Shown here: positions 16,662-21,945 of the stretch, piece after piece | Numbering within the stretch: the stretch's first letter is position 1 | How the letters are laid out: every line of letters begins with the position of its first letter | From: Fidelibacterota bacterium | GTDB lineage: Bacteria > Fidelibacterota > UBA8477 | NCBI GenBank assembly: GCA_021734045.1 | Contig: JAIPJR010000005.1 | Span: forward strand, 1-47,977 | Length of the DNA: 47,977 bases | Direction of reading: 5' to 3' | Made by a program: the position numbers and the translations under genes | Notes under the pieces: model-generated | Database searches by the model: none | What the model was told of the DNA's origin: nothing | The model's input: the letters and a program-made list of their open reading frames with translations, nothing else

Positions 16662-17341
16662 AACTGATCCCCACTTTTTACACGCAATAAATAACTACCG
16701 GAAGTGTATCCCCCCACATTCCAGGACACCTGGTATCGTCCGCTCCTCTGTATTTCCAACCACCGGGTTTCCAGGGTGCGGCCGCTTAAATCGAAGAGGG
16801 TCAGCTCGTACCCACCCGGAATCATATTATGCAGTGCTGTATTGAACATGGCATTGGTGGGATTCGGGAATACCTGTACCAGATTAAATTCGACCGGTGC
16901 CGGCGGTGTAGGTTCATCCACAACACCGATAGCTCCGAAGGTATAGGAAATATCCGCAGTGTCAGCTTCCATAGTGGTGGAATCAATTACCTCGATGGAC
17001 CATTCGCCCAGCCCCTCAACTTCAAACGGATAAATGTCCAGCGCAAACCAAGCCGAATCCCCCGGTGATAGGCTAAAATCATATACATCTATGAAGGGCG
17101 GTAAACAAACGATCTCAATACACATACTGGCACTCCACTCCGGGGGTGGGGTGGTGCGATACAGTCGGTTGGTGGTTAATTGGAGTGTATCTGAAGATGT
17201 ATTCACGATCCAGGCTTCATATTGATAGAATTCATGCAGCCCGGCCACACTTGTATCCTGATGAATAAATGAAAACCTGGATTGTCCCAGTCCCATCACC
17301 ACCAACAGGGTAAACAGGAAAATCTTTTTTAGGGTAACCAT
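16631..17341 (-). CDS. secreted protein with T9SS-like sorting domain
   Basis: This 236-residue protein has a signal peptide (KIFLFTLLVVMGLGQS), a domain of about 120 residues with two Cys in CIEIVCLPPF, and a C-terminal sorting domain of about 80 residues. The sorting domain shows VQVFPNPTNA, YELTLFDLSGRTLETRW and SGSYLLRVKSGDQLWMKRITIIK (the last quoted in part only as SGSYLLRVKSG). It is probably exported across the outer membrane and anchored or released at the surface. The N-terminal domain looks like an Ig-like fold with no enzyme motif. Its stop lies inside the TlpA gene, so it belongs to the same operon. The start ATG at 17341 lies 6 bases after the end of the possible selenoprotein reading frame. 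Confidence 0.78.
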   Translation of the reverse strand: MVTLKKIFLFTLLVVMGLGQSRFSFIHQDTSVAGLHEFYQYEAWIVNTSSDTLQLTTNRLYRTTPPPEWSASMCIEIVCLPPFIDVYDFSLSPGDSAWFALDIYPFEVEGLGEWSIEVIDSTTMEADTADISYTFGAIGVVDEPTPPAPVEFNLVQVFPNPTNAMFNTALHNMIPGGYELTLFDLSGRTLETRWLEIQRSGRYQVSWNVGGYTSGSYLLRVKSGDQLWMKRITIIK

Positions 17342-17347
17342 CGTGTG

Positions 17348-17515
17348 TTATCTCTCGTCAGTTTTGCTTCGCTCGGTATCTTCACACTTATTCTCGCCCG
17401 GAGAATAAAACCCTGTGCTTCAGGTGGGTGCTGTGATATTGAATCGCGGTAAAACCCATCCCACGATGACAAACCACAGGAAAACGGCACCAATAAAAAT
17501 AAGAACATCTAGCAT
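17348..17515 (-). CDS. tiny single-span membrane protein; possible selenoprotein by UGA read-through
   Basis: ATG 17515, preceded by GGGGAGAAAGCGGC, opens a frame of 31 residues: a membrane span (LDVLIFIGAVFLWFVIVGWV) and then LPRFNITAPT, ended by TGA at 17422-17420. If the UGA is read as selenocysteine, the frame continues for 23 codons with one Cys (CED) to TAA at 17350-17348, only 6 bases before the next gene. A perfect 8-bp hairpin begins within 10 to 11 bases after the UGA, as a bacterial SECIS would. I remember small single-span bacterial proteins with P-T-U near the C-terminus but cannot verify the match. Without recoding, the gene is 17420-17515. Its neighbours are rhodanese and DUF6132 genes of a sulfur-handling run. 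No selA, selB, selC or selD is in the window. Confidence 0.5.
17387..17409 (-). other. stem-loop just after an in-frame UGA (SECIS-like)
   Basis: On the minus strand TTATTCTC and GAGAATAA pair over 8 bases around the five-base loop CGGGC, and a U-G pair can add one more. The loop starts 19 bases after the UGA and has G at its second position; bacterial SECIS elements typically have loops 16-37 bases downstream with an early G. No U-run follows, so it is a poor rho-independent terminator. It could still be a plain mRNA hairpin. Confidence 0.5.
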
Positions 17516-17621: not shown

Positions 17622-17828
17622 TTATCCGGTGGATTCAGCGTTTTTCTTCTCACGCTGTTTTCCCGGCCAGGCAAATAACAACCCCACAACAGCACCATAC
17701 AGTGTGGAAACCACCGGGTTCGAGGTAATTGCGCAGGTGCCGCTTTTGCATCCGATGAAAAAGTAGTACGCGAACCCCACTCCTGCTCCCAGCCCTACTC
17801 CAATCGCCAGTTTTAGCCAGGTTTTCAT
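17622..17828 (-). CDS. DUF6132 family small membrane protein
   Basis: The 68-residue protein has two predicted membrane helices (residues 5-25 and 42-58) with the connecting motif IGCKSGTCAITSNPVVSTLYGA, written here in part as GCKSGTCAITSNP. The two cysteines C27 and C32 sit at the membrane edge and are the family signature. Genes of this family often neighbour rhodanese genes, and here the ATG overlaps the rhodanese stop by 4 bases. A role in passing sulfur or redox equivalents across the membrane is plausible but not known. A stretch of 106 bases without a gene separates it from the tiny ORF at 17515; that stretch holds two copies of TTTTCAA and a polypurine tract but no clear terminator. 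Confidence 0.8.
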   Translation of the reverse strand: MKTWLKLAIGVGLGAGVGFAYYFFIGCKSGTCAITSNPVVSTLYGAVVGLLFAWPGKQREKKNAESTG

Positions 17829-18247
17829 TTCTTCACCTCTGATGTTTGGGGTTTTCCAAGCTGATTCCAGGCACGCATTCCACCCAGCATATTGATAGCA
17901 TTAAAGCCCTTTTCCCGCAATAAAACCGTGGCGACTTGCGAGCGATTACCGCTCCGACAATAAACGACAATTTCCTTATTCCTCACCGATTCCAGTTCCC
18001 GATATCGTTTACTCAATGCCTGTAGTGGTATCAGCCGGGCACCTTCCAGGTGACCCAGGGGACCATCCCACTCCGCCTGCGTGCGCACATCCAAGAGGAT
18101 CAAATCGGCCTCCAGGTCGAGTTTCTCGCGGAGTTCAGCAACAGAGATATTGGGGAACCCTGGTGAGGTATCATTCTGTACCAGTGCAAGCCCCACCAGG
18201 GCTGCACCAAACAAAACGATACTTGCGATTATGATTGATTTGCGCAT
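17825..18247 (-). CDS. exported or membrane-anchored single-domain rhodanese
   Basis: The 140-residue protein has an N-terminal hydrophobic segment (residues 4-23) and one rhodanese domain. The LLDVRTQAEWDGPLGHLEGA motif is represented by DVRTQAEW, and the active-site loop is YCRSGNRSQ with persulfide-forming Cys C97. Rhodaneses carry sulfane sulfur between donors and thiol acceptors. The signal segment places it on the outer face of the membrane. It is translationally coupled to the DUF6132 gene (ATGA overlap) and lies 7 bases after the OsmC gene. Together these suggest handling of external or periplasmic persulfide or polysulfide. Confidence 0.88.
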   Translation of the reverse strand: MRKSIIIASIVLFGAALVGLALVQNDTSPGFPNISVAELREKLDLEADLILLDVRTQAEWDGPLGHLEGARLIPLQALSKRYRELESVRNKEIVVYCRSGNRSQVATVLLREKGFNAINMLGGMRAWNQLGKPQTSEVKK

Positions 18248-18254
18248 GGCTATG

Positions 18255-18680
18255 TTATGCAGCTGTGTTGTGATTCTCGATGTGAACCGTGATTTTGGTG
18301 GTTTTTGAGAGCATGGCTGTCACTGAACAGTAGGTCGTCTCCGAAAGATGGACTGCCCGCTCCAATTTTTTCAACGGCAAATCCGGTCCGTAGAAATGAA
18401 ATGTCAAATCGATTTTGGTGTAGATTTTCGGATGCTCATTCGCCCGCTCCGACTCAATCTCGATTTGCATATCCTCGATCGGAACTTTCATTTTTTTTAA
18501 AATCGATGTCACATCCATGGCGGTACAGCCCCCCAACGCAAACAGAACCATTTCCATGGGTCGTGACCCGGCATTAGCGCCGCCAACCTGCTCCGGACCA
18601 TCCATGACAACCCAGTGCCCGGAATCTCCCTTCGCTAAAAATGTGGCAGCTTTCCCCACCTGCTGAATTTTTACAGCCAT
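18255..18680 (-). CDS. OsmC family thiol peroxidase-like protein (YhfA type)
   Basis: The 141-residue cytoplasmic protein shows the OsmC pattern: GGANAGSRPMEMVLFALGGC with C52 at the helix start, and a second conserved Cys C118 in LSETTYCSVTAML. In characterised OsmC/Ohr proteins this pair reduces organic hydroperoxides using lipoyl or thiol donors; other members act on sulfane sulfur. The sequence resembles the YhfA-like subgroup with a short N-terminus. It sits between DUF1858 and rhodanese genes, so a thiol or persulfide substrate is as likely as a peroxide. The start is ATG 18680. Confidence 0.87.
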   Translation of the reverse strand: MAVKIQQVGKAATFLAKGDSGHWVVMDGPEQVGGANAGSRPMEMVLFALGGCTAMDVTSILKKMKVPIEDMQIEIESERANEHPKIYTKIDLTFHFYGPDLPLKKLERAVHLSETTYCSVTAMLSKTTKITVHIENHNTAA

Positions 18681-18699: not shown

Positions 18700-18924
18700 T
18701 CAGCGTAAATAATGATTGTCTTTTTCAGATTTTTTCAGCCGGTCATTCATTCGATCAACCAGGTCGCTGATATCTCTAATTCCCTTCTGGGCTGCCTGCT
18801 CCTCCAAAGTTCCCCAAACGGGTTCCCCGCAGGCCAGGCAAACGATTCCCTCATCTTTCAGGGGACCGATCAGTTCAGGGTGCGTTTGCACCAGATCTTC
18901 GATCAGCATTTCTTTCTGGATCAT
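18700..18924 (-). CDS. DUF1858 domain small protein
   Basis: The 74-residue protein is a single DUF1858 domain: an opening LIEDLVQTHPELIGPLKDEG and the motif IVCLACGEPVWGTLEEQAAQKG with C29 and C32. Such domains occur alone or attached to hybrid-cluster-like, NADH-dependent or rhodanese proteins, and the CxxC pair suggests binding of a metal or a sulfur adduct. It lies 17 bases after the flavoprotein gene and 19 before OsmC, in one transcript. No specific reaction is known to me. Confidence 0.82.
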   Translation of the reverse strand: MIQKEMLIEDLVQTHPELIGPLKDEGIVCLACGEPVWGTLEEQAAQKGIRDISDLVDRMNDRLKKSEKDNHYLR

Positions 18925-18941: not shown

Positions 18942-20303
18942 TTATTTCACTTTTCCTGCTACACTACCCGCCACATTCACCGGGTCGTACACGGGTGAGT
19001 AGGGTGGCGCATACGCCAGATCCAGCATTGCCAGGTCATCCGCAGTCATGCCCGCGGAAATGGCTGTGGCCAACACATCAATCCGTTTGGCAACACCCGC
19101 TTTCCCCACCATCTGGGCCCCCAGGATTTTCTTCTCCCGCTTATCCAGAACCAGCTTGATTTTAATGGGTTCCGCACCGGGATAATACCCCGCACGATCA
19201 TTCTCGGAAATCACAACACTGGTCACATGGGGAAATTTCTCACTCTCCTCAACCATCTCTTCCGTAATTCCCGTGGAAGCCATGGTGTAATCGAAGACTT
19301 TCACAACATTGGTCCCCAGAATTCCCGGGAAAATGGTATGCCCGCCGGAAGCGTTGTCCCCCGCAATCCGTCCGGTTTTATTCGCCGATGGCGCTAGGGG
19401 CATCCACACACCTTCACCCAAAACACGATGCTCCAGTTCAGCACAATCACCCGCTGCCCAAATACGATCCACATTGGTTTTCAGGCGGTTATTCGTCCAA
19501 ATCGCACCGGATTTCCCCATCTTCAAACCAGCCTCTTTCGCCATTTCGGAATTGGGTTTCACACCAGTAGCCAAAATAACCATATCAACGATTAGGCCGG
19601 TGGTAGCACCTTCGATGTCCAGTTTCAAACCATTCTTCTGCTCTTTAATTGCCTTCAGTTTGGATTCCAGATATATACTGACACCGTGCTCTTTTAAATG
19701 AGCGGTCACCTCTTCCACCATATCCGGTGAATAATTGGGCATGATATGGGGCGCCATCTCGATGAGATGCACGTCCAGATTTTTCGCCCGTAAGGCCTCC
19801 GCCATTTCCAAACCGATATACCCGGCACCCACGATGGCAACCCGCTGGGGTCCGTTTTCTTCCATAAATTTAAAGATCTTCTGACCCTCACCCAGTGTCC
19901 GCAGGGTGAACACGCCGTCTGACAAGACTCCCGGTATATGGGGACGAATGGCCGAAGCACCGGTTGCAATAATCAAATGGTCAAAGCTCACATCCTCCAG
20001 TTCACCCTTCTTCAGGTCATGAACTGTCACATGGCGTTGGGCGGCTTCAATGGCCACAACTTCATGATGCGTGCGTACATCTATCCCACGCTTTTCTTTC
20101 GCAATCTTAGGCGTTAATATCTGCAAATCTTTGTCTGAACCTACAATACCACCCAGCCAGTAGGGCATCCCGCAGGCAGCATAGCTAATGTGTGCATCAC
20201 GCTCATAGACGATAACTTCGGCATCCTTGTCATTCCGCTTGATTCGACTTGCAGCGCTCATGCCGGCTGCATCACCACCAATAATAATGTATCGCGTACT
20301 CAT
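18942..20303 (-). CDS. CoA-disulfide reductase / NADH oxidase-type flavoprotein
   Basis: The 453-residue protein is a single-cysteine member of the pyridine nucleotide-disulfide oxidoreductases. It has an FAD-binding loop IIGGDAAGMSAASR at the N-terminus, active-site C44 in SYAACGMPYWLGG, an NAD(P)-binding GAGYIGLEMAEAL near residue 160 and the FAD motif RIWAAGDCAE near residue 280. C44 matches the cysteine that forms a mixed disulfide with CoA in CoA-disulfide reductases and a sulfenate in NADH oxidases. The relatives that reduce polysulfide or CoA persulfide carry a C-terminal rhodanese domain. Here no such domain is attached, but rhodanese, OsmC and DUF1858 are encoded just downstream as separate genes. 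I infer an NAD(P)H-dependent persulfide, polysulfide or CoA-disulfide reductase. Confidence 0.87.
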   Translation of the reverse strand: MSTRYIIIGGDAAGMSAASRIKRNDKDAEVIVYERDAHISYAACGMPYWLGGIVGSDKDLQILTPKIAKEKRGIDVRTHHEVVAIEAAQRHVTVHDLKKGELEDVSFDHLIIATGASAIRPHIPGVLSDGVFTLRTLGEGQKIFKFMEENGPQRVAIVGAGYIGLEMAEALRAKNLDVHLIEMAPHIMPNYSPDMVEEVTAHLKEHGVSIYLESKLKAIKEQKNGLKLDIEGATTGLIVDMVILATGVKPNSEMAKEAGLKMGKSGAIWTNNRLKTNVDRIWAAGDCAELEHRVLGEGVWMPLAPSANKTGRIAGDNASGGHTIFPGILGTNVVKVFDYTMASTGITEEMVEESEKFPHVTSVVISENDRAGYYPGAEPIKIKLVLDKREKKILGAQMVGKAGVAKRIDVLATAISAGMTADDLAMLDLAYAPPYSPVYDPVNVAGSVAGKVK

Positions 20304-20773: not shown

Positions 20774-21019
20774 CTATATGCTTAATAATCGTTCAATTTT
20801 AGCCCGGTCAAATCCGACCACAGGCCGATTGTTTATCCACAGTTGCGGCACGCCCTGTTGACCGGTTTTACGGACCATGTCCTGGGCAGCCTTCTGATTT
20901 CTACTCACATCCACTTCTTTAAATTTTACCTGCTTCTCCCGTAAATACCGCTTGGCCGAGTTACAATGTGTACAGGTAGGTGTTGTAAATACAATGACTT
21001 TTGGTTGGCTTTTCTGCAT
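20774..21019 (-). CDS. glutaredoxin-like protein (CTHC active site)
   Basis: The 81-residue protein has a glutaredoxin/NrdH-like thioredoxin fold: VIVFTTPTCTHCNSAKRYL with C16 and C19, then a cis-proline segment QGVPQLWINNRPVVGFDRAKI. The lysine-rich tail and TCTHC motif resemble the Uxx-star/NrdH branch, which takes electrons from thioredoxin reductase or glutathione. The start is ATG 21019 with GAGGA 8 bases upstream; a TTG six bases earlier is less likely. It is encoded immediately downstream of the sigma and anti-sigma genes, so it is probably part of an ECF-controlled disulfide-stress response. Confidence 0.88.
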   Translation of the reverse strand: MQKSQPKVIVFTTPTCTHCNSAKRYLREKQVKFKEVDVSRNQKAAQDMVRKTGQQGVPQLWINNRPVVGFDRAKIERLLSI

Positions 21020-21037
21020 TTCCAAATCCTCTTCGCA

Positions 21038-21289
21038 TCATGAGTCAGGTTTATCCAATCGCAAGACTTTGAAGAGTCGCTCGGAAATTTCTTCCGGTAC
21101 AGCTTTATCACACTCCGTCTGATGGTACAGCTTCACCGAGCGTTTCATGGTGTCGTAATAAATCCGACAGTCAGGGCATTCATCCATCAACTTACCGACT
21201 TCCTCACACAGCGGTGATTCCAGATCAGCTCCGAACTCGGAACAAATCTTCGCCTGCAAATTAATGTCTCTTTTTCGCTCTTTGGCCAT
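21038..21289 (-). CDS. Cys-rich anti-sigma factor-like protein
   Basis: The 83-residue protein is basic at the N-terminus and carries five cysteines, with a C28-x9-C38-x2-C41 cluster in CEEVGKLMDECPDCR. Zinc anti-sigma factors such as RsrA bind zinc through H-x3-C-x2-C; here the CPDC pair is kept but the usual His is replaced by Leu. It follows the ECF sigma gene by 3 bases and precedes a glutaredoxin gene. It is soluble, without a membrane helix, as expected for a redox-sensing anti-sigma that releases its sigma when its cysteines are oxidised. That mechanism is inferred from the family and context. Confidence 0.7.
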   Translation of the reverse strand: MAKERKRDINLQAKICSEFGADLESPLCEEVGKLMDECPDCRIYYDTMKRSVKLYHQTECDKAVPEEISERLFKVLRLDKPDS

Positions 21290-21292
21290 TTT

Positions 21293-21877
21293 TTATACCA
21301 ACCAGCCCTTGCGTTTAAAATAAGCGTTCAAGCGGTCTCGCAGAAATAAGCGTGCCCGCATGAGTCGTACCTTAACATTGCTCACAGTCAAGTCCAGCAT
21401 TTTTGCCGTCTCCTCCGTTGAAAGCCCTTCCAGGTCTCGCAGGACGAATACCGAACGGTATTTCTCAGGCAAATCATCCAACGTGGCATCCAGCGCAGTC
21501 CGGAATTCCTCGTCAGAGATTTTCGTCTCAATATGGACCGGCCAATCGGAAATCGAGAGCCCCTGCAGATTTTCAAAATCCGGTTCCTGAATCGAGTATG
21601 CCACCTTCATTTTGGACTGTTCGCGTAATTTCCCCAAAGCAATATTCACTGCAATCCGGTACACCCAAGTATAAAAGCTGGATTTTTCTTTGAATGTATC
21701 CAGCTTTCTAAAAGCTGTGATGAATGTCTCCTGGAGTAAATCTTCCGCATCCTCCCGGTTCCGCAACATGCGTAATCCCAGGTTAAAAATGCGCCCGGAG
21801 TACATGTTCACCAGCTGCGTCTGCGCCCGGCTGTCACCAGCACGTGCAGATTGAATCAGTTCGGGCGACTCTTCCAT
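21293..21877 (-). CDS. ECF-type RNA polymerase sigma factor
   Basis: The 194-residue protein has sigma region 2 at residues 10-75 (NLGLRMLRNREDAEDLLQETF, quoted as NREDAEDLLQETF, with FYTWVYRIAVNIAL) and region 4 at about 130-180 (LPEKYRSVFVLRDLEGLSTEETAKMLD, quoted as LRDLEGLSTEETA, and VKVRLMRAR). It would direct polymerase to stress promoters. I start it at ATG 21877 rather than a TTG two codons earlier, because AGTAGGGCG lies closer. The neighbouring anti-sigma, glutaredoxin and GroES genes suggest control of a thiol/protein-damage response. The gap to the DUF4920 gene upstream is 62 bases and probably holds the promoter. Confidence 0.9.
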   Translation of the reverse strand: MEESPELIQSARAGDSRAQTQLVNMYSGRIFNLGLRMLRNREDAEDLLQETFITAFRKLDTFKEKSSFYTWVYRIAVNIALGKLREQSKMKVAYSIQEPDFENLQGLSISDWPVHIETKISDEEFRTALDATLDDLPEKYRSVFVLRDLEGLSTEETAKMLDLTVSNVKVRLMRARLFLRDRLNAYFKRKGWLV

Positions 21878-21945
21878 TGTCAAATCGCCCTACTTGGATG
21901 GGGTTGCAGGTTTCAGGTTACACGCTTCCATAAACACGGACAGAC

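Follow-up and report, generated by a model that had tools for sequence, protein, structure and literature searches.

A family of small single-helix membrane proteins with a conserved in-frame UGA codon, probably read as selenocysteine, in about ten bacterial phyla

Bacterial selenoproteins, of which a 2026 table lists 119 prokaryotic families, have in common an in-frame UGA codon, the SelA/B/C/D machinery and a bSECIS-type hairpin 16–37 nt downstream of the UGA, with a loop of 3–9 nt that has a G in its first two positions and a stem of 4–16 bp, and they often carry a second redox residue, a cysteine, near the selenocysteine (Sec) (PMC13188914). Selenoproteins without Cys homologs were described as scarce in a 2007 stop-codon screen (PMC1914089), and according to the 2025 deep-Sep study Cys-containing homologs now seem to exist for all known selenoproteins, including the glycine reductase selenoprotein A (GrdA), long held to be the sole one without them; the deep-Sep method may itself drop selenoproteins that lack Cys homologs (PMC12013277). 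Here we describe a family that shares the UGA, the machinery, the hairpin and, often, the nearby Cys with these proteins, but whose PT-U motif is absent from the 119-family table (PMC13188914) and for which we found neither a Pfam or NCBIfam match nor a Cys homolog. GrdA, the CxxU subunit of an enzyme, is unrelated to it in sequence. The KCU-star/DUF466, CC/Se motif, DUF1858 and YHS families resemble it in being short, in their thiol-redox or metal context and in having no named enzyme activity, but they have NCBIfam or Pfam models of their own, none of which the new family matches, and, unlike in these, an N-terminal membrane helix directly precedes the Sec in the new family. The YeeE/YedE thiosulfate transporter selenoproteins are likewise membrane proteins with a Sec form in a sulfur context, but they are multi-span transporters with a GUxSG motif and show no sequence match to it.

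The founding gene lies on the minus strand of a DNA stretch of 47,977 nucleotides (hereafter the window), at 17348..17515, the UAA stop included. It starts with an ATG at 17515, preceded by a Shine-Dalgarno-like GGGGAG, and runs through 31 sense codons to a UGA at 17422-17420 (codon 32), followed by 23 more codons, one of them for Cys, and a UAA at 17350-17348, six bases before the ATG of the next ORF at 17341. Read through, the product is a protein of 55 residues, MLDVLIFIGAVFLWFVIVGWVLPRFNITAPT-U-STGFYSPGENKCEDTERSKTDER, and the direct reading is matched by the family profile (E 3.7e-30, one TGA inside). Past the UGA, at 17388..17408 on the minus strand, lies a bSECIS-like hairpin, TTATTCTC-CGGGC-GAGAATAA, with a perfect 8-bp stem, to which a ninth, U-G pair could be added, and with its loop 19 nt past the UGA, which fits the published rules for loop G, stem and spacing (PMC13188914). 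The gene had been noticed in a first-pass annotation of the sequence, whose account of the ORF, the ribosome site, the UGA, the hairpin, its spacing, the Cys count and the distance to the next gene agrees with the bases, and whose proposal that selenocysteine is inserted here is supported by the Sec machinery, the invariant UGA, the hairpin and the coding selection past the UGA described below.

The plainest competing explanation is that a 31-residue membrane peptide ends at an ordinary UGA stop and that the frame downstream is open by chance. UGA does serve as a normal stop as well, and 48 of the 134 family genes end in it. In the fetched DNA, the same geometry gives a hairpin of equal score after 13 of the 488 UGA codons that are ordinary stops (2.7%), and the 61-nt fold of the window gene is about as stable as its shuffled versions (z 0.3), so that by itself the window hairpin is no more than suggestive and it is the homologs that carry the case. 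For the window gene alone, a chance open frame combined with a chance hairpin is possible; for the whole family it is not.

Homologs in two genomes of the same genus (E 2.4e-21 and 3.0e-9, stops being read through) each have one TGA in the same place. A four-sequence profile run over 245 genomes of the window's own phylum, which we take to be Neomarinimicrobiota because several of these genomes share identical proteins with named MAGs of that phylum, recovered 27 members with UGA at this codon in 27/27. One N-terminal helix and the motif LPK(L/M)G(V/I)PT-U characterise the family. GTDB was then scanned over 84,980 species, each represented by a single genome, with a motif that stopped at the Thr before the UGA and left the next codon free; that codon was TGA in 68/68 loci confirmed as relatives, a count that leaves out 26 further motif matches that failed confirmation. 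These 68 loci come from Neomarinimicrobiota, Nitrospirota, Acidobacteriota, Desulfobacterota, Thermodesulfobacteriota, Zixibacteria, KSB1, Calditrichota, Gemmatimonadota and Planctomycetota. When the profile was run on the genomes around one from Desulfobacterota and one from Nitrospirota, 172/395 and 105/395 genomes, respectively, had a family match (E<=0.01), with a TGA inside nearly all among the matches listed; five stop-free matches (E 3.5e-5 or better) stopped short of the codon, and on retrieval of their loci all five proved to have UGA there. Altogether, 134 distinct members were collected; from L148 onwards, the script that extracted them was anchored on the TGA, and the unbiased figures for the UGA are accordingly those of the phylum profile, the GTDB scan and the Desulfobacterota and Nitrospirota profile searches. 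Since the UGA persists where the preceding PT is replaced by ST, HS, HG, GG, RT or KT, no other codon in the gene is as constant. One Desulfobacterales genome (L148, G256:C244:4657-5019) has the gene in two tandem copies, each with one in-frame TGA.

Neither the GTDB motif scan nor the profile searches of 1,035 genomes from three phyla yielded a version with UAA or UAG at this codon, and no Cys version appeared in the same 245 + 395 + 395 genomes searched by profile or in the motif-based GTDB scan. The sole 'Cys' candidate, L213, was rejected as a family member by eye. The first-pass annotation had considered that homologs might have UAA or UAG as a stop here, of which none was found, the codon being UGA in every homolog recovered, from the window's genus and phylum to about nine other phyla; of its expectation that they would carry either U or Cys, the U came true and the Cys did not; and the P-T-U likeness that it mentioned turned out to be the core of the family, which extends beyond FCB genomes and beyond sulfur operons. 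A pairing of Cys and Sec among homologs, which serves for the discovery of selenoproteins and not for their definition, is not found here; three features by which membership is judged are present: an in-frame UGA kept in homologs, Sec machinery and a bSECIS hairpin.

The hairpin was scored with a script of our own that approximates the published bSECIS geometry, not with bSECISearch. A score >=10 is reached by 92% of the members, while the shares are 38% for ordinary UGA stops and 26% for dinucleotide-shuffled sequences (P=4e-34), with a spacing in the members from UGA to loop of mostly 16–24 nt; a few members, such as L059, have weak hairpins. Among the 27 members from the window's phylum, 82.7% of stem positions are paired, compared to 47-56% in slid controls, and the stem contains 11 cells of double, compensatory change (0/500 shuffles). 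Between phyla, the letters of the stem are wholly different while the pairing is kept, as in TTATTCTC/GAGAATAA, GATCTTC/GAAGATC, CTTGTC/GACAAG and ATCCTC/GAGGAT.

The codons that follow the UGA are also under constraint. A comparison of 30 non-overlapping pairs of relatives gives a pN/pS of 0.19 upstream of the UGA and of 0.54 downstream; among the downstream differences, 135/301 are at third codon positions, above expectation (P=2e-5), a signal to which the constraint on the SECIS hairpin may add. By these computed measures, the stretch past the UGA evolves as coding sequence.

The genome from which the window comes (2.54 Mb, 92% complete) encodes the machinery that such decoding requires, as the first-pass annotation had proposed to check: selA (502.7 bits) adjoins selB (361.9 bits), a tRNA-Sec with the anticodon TCA (UCA) scores 67.2 bits, and selD (L008; G000 contig C24:15775-16698) is present with one TGA in frame, from which SelD is itself probably a selenoprotein. 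Across genomes, the family follows the Sec trait. In Nitrospirota, selA occurs in 97/100 family carriers and 78/295 non-carriers (Fisher P=3.5e-39, ignoring shared ancestry), and in Neomarinimicrobiota it occurs in 25/27 carriers and 177/245 genomes overall (P=0.01, likewise ignoring shared ancestry), with a clear tRNA-Sec in one of the two carriers without selA; among 50 carrier genomes from other phyla, selB scores above its curated cut-off in 46. Sec genes were not found in 3/100 carriers from Nitrospirota, in one from Neomarinimicrobiota (G108, 70% complete) and in 1/50 of the other carriers, plausibly because these genomes are incomplete.

Taken against the ordinary stop, the lack of any observed UAA or UAG in place of the UGA, the conserved residues and purifying selection beyond it, the SECIS-like hairpin and the tie to selA leave that explanation so small a chance that we regard it as ruled out by the invariant UGA, the selA association, the coding selection and the hairpin. 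The window UGA (17420..17422, minus strand; homologous codon UGA in 27/27 phylum members and 68/68 GTDB loci) is, to judge from these sequence comparisons, almost certainly read as selenocysteine, as residue 32, and we put the probability that selenocysteine is inserted and that the 55-residue product belongs to the family, taken jointly, at roughly 95%.

The AlphaFold2 model has a single predicted transmembrane helix over residues 2-24 (17444..17512, minus strand), with a mean pLDDT >90 over residues 1-20 and low confidence past residue 38. The N-terminal side is acidic; in the stretch that leads to the Sec, all members have at least one Lys or Arg and acidic residues are on average absent, and by the positive-inside rule the Sec would then lie at the cytoplasmic face. 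A Cys follows the Sec in 110/134 members, most often five residues on, and none does in 24; in about half of the members it is located 5-8 residues past the U. A thioredoxin fold with a CxxC or UxxC motif was not found, the model consisting of the single helix and the low-confidence tail, and a profile search of the PDB gave no match to the family. Twelve members scanned against Pfam and NCBIfam (June 2026) came near no cut-off, the TsoA/B/C/X/Y families (NCBIfam models listed in PMC13188914) were matched by none of the members, a plasmid search gave no match, and a search for the motif in the literature, of which our coverage was partial, returned nothing relevant, so a prior description elsewhere is possible.

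In the window, the gene follows a series of minus-strand genes for which the first-pass label of a 'sulfur-handling operon' is fair, as those directly upstream encode a DUF6132 small membrane protein (GCKSGTCAITSNP; 17622..17828, PF19628 E 1.3e-10), a rhodanese domain protein (17825..18247, PF00581 E 1.3e-17), an OsmC-like protein (18255..18680, PF02566 E 2.3e-19), a DUF1858-like small protein (18700..18924, TIGR03980 E 1.3e-7 and PF08984 E 5.8e-5, both under the curated cut-offs) and a CoA-disulfide-reductase-like flavoprotein (18942..20303, TIGR03385 at 484.8 bits, under the 578.8 cut-off). On the same strand are also encoded a glutaredoxin (20774..21025, PF00462 E 8.2e-20), an RsrA-like putative anti-sigma factor (21038..21289, TIGR03988 E 7.7e-4, under the cut-off), which has the same place beside the sigma factor in relatives, and an ECF sigma factor (21293..21883, PF04542/PF08281 E about 1e-17). 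The anti-sigma-like protein keeps a CPDC, and a Leu replaces the His of the HxxxCxxC zinc motif of its relatives. The DUF6132 protein has a conserved GCxSGTCxITSxP that by eye is like the GUxSG of the YeeE/YedE selenoproteins.

Similar neighbours recur elsewhere. In the 27 loci of the window's phylum, by raw motif counts that Pfam confirmed for examples, they are DUF6132 (20/27), DUF302 (20/27), an FmdB-type zinc ribbon (17/27), an ECF sigma factor (17/27) and rhodanese (16/27), the selenoprotein gene often overlapping the end of the DUF302 gene and being followed by the ribbon. Among 105 neighbouring proteins from other phyla, again as raw counts, we found zinc ribbons (5), DUF302 (4), OsmC (4, adjoining the gene), DUF6132 (4), ECF sigma factors (3) and zf-HC2 anti-sigma factors (3), and in Desulfobacterota thioredoxin and a thioredoxin-reductase-like flavoprotein. 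In Nitrospirota, the gene lies directly behind rpoA-rplQ and sometimes overlaps the rplQ stop (L090, L091, L095, L096, L117, L118, L122, L124 and others), and in Thermodesulfobacteria it overlaps or abuts the end of gltX (L100, L103, L105, L108, L165); both contexts are uninformative on function. Several of the latter loci have a small opposite-strand gene that resembles an RNA chaperone, and in some Desulfobacterota (L163:1031-1459 on the minus strand, also L169, L170 and L173) the gene is followed by a conserved protein of ~143 residues (MTHxxTGNYAAKH...), one copy of which had no match in Pfam.

With the neighbours across phyla as the evidence (ECF sigma/anti-sigma, thioredoxin, DUF302, DUF6132, OsmC, rhodanese and zinc ribbon), a role in the redox handling of thiols or persulfides, as a selenol anchored in the membrane, has about an even chance of being right. 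SelB and Sec-tRNA(UCA) almost certainly read the UGA with the aid of the hairpin just downstream, yielding a product of 55 residues with one N-terminal membrane helix, a short charged tail and, at the surface of the membrane, the conserved LPxxGxPT-U. The Sec would face the cytoplasm, take or pass electrons or sulfane sulfur and be recycled by thioredoxin or glutaredoxin, and a Cys 5-8 residues past the U could pair with it as a selenenyl-sulfide. The setting would be an ECF-sigma/anti-sigma programme of thiol or persulfide stress, with rhodanese, OsmC, DUF302 and DUF6132 proteins as partners.

The same neighbourhoods bear on two other proposals. The helix, which like the size of the protein is typical of accessory subunits, might instead dock on a membrane neighbour, such as the adjacent DUF6132 or an electron-transfer complex, with the Sec ligating a metal or heme, and Fe-S and cytochrome-type genes do lie upstream in some Desulfobacterota; yet no partner is constant across phyla and in many lineages the neighbour is rplQ or gltX, which makes a structural or regulatory subunit rather doubtful. 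We consider a selenium-specific role unlikely, in which the protein would transport, hand over or sense the element and Cys could never take the place of Sec; it might, for instance, transfer selenide or a selenenyl-sulfide to SelD, or its UGA might gauge how much Sec-tRNA is available. The missing Cys form and the strict tie to the Sec trait would suit such a role, as would rhodanese-type and OsmC partners that could handle selenium as well as sulfur, but the neighbours are mostly thiol-redox and stress genes and not sel genes, and 78 Nitrospirota genomes have selA without the family, which argues against a general part in Sec supply.

The family spans hundreds of bacterial genomes from about ten phyla, matches no curated family and has no Cys version that we could find. 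We think it likely that it is Sec-obligate, a minimal single-helix membrane selenoprotein of hundreds of species that is never replaced by a Cys form and whose chemistry would make selenium indispensable; if so, it will have been overlooked because discovery pipelines demand Cys homologs and a minimum ORF size. Because its standard reading is an ORF of ~30 codons, under the usual size cut-offs, the genomes of many phyla hold the gene unannotated or truncated. A widespread family for which no Cys form is found contradicts the working assumption that Cys homologs are universal, suggests why such a family was missed, and makes it possible to test directly which chemistry is open to selenium and closed to sulfur, an old question.
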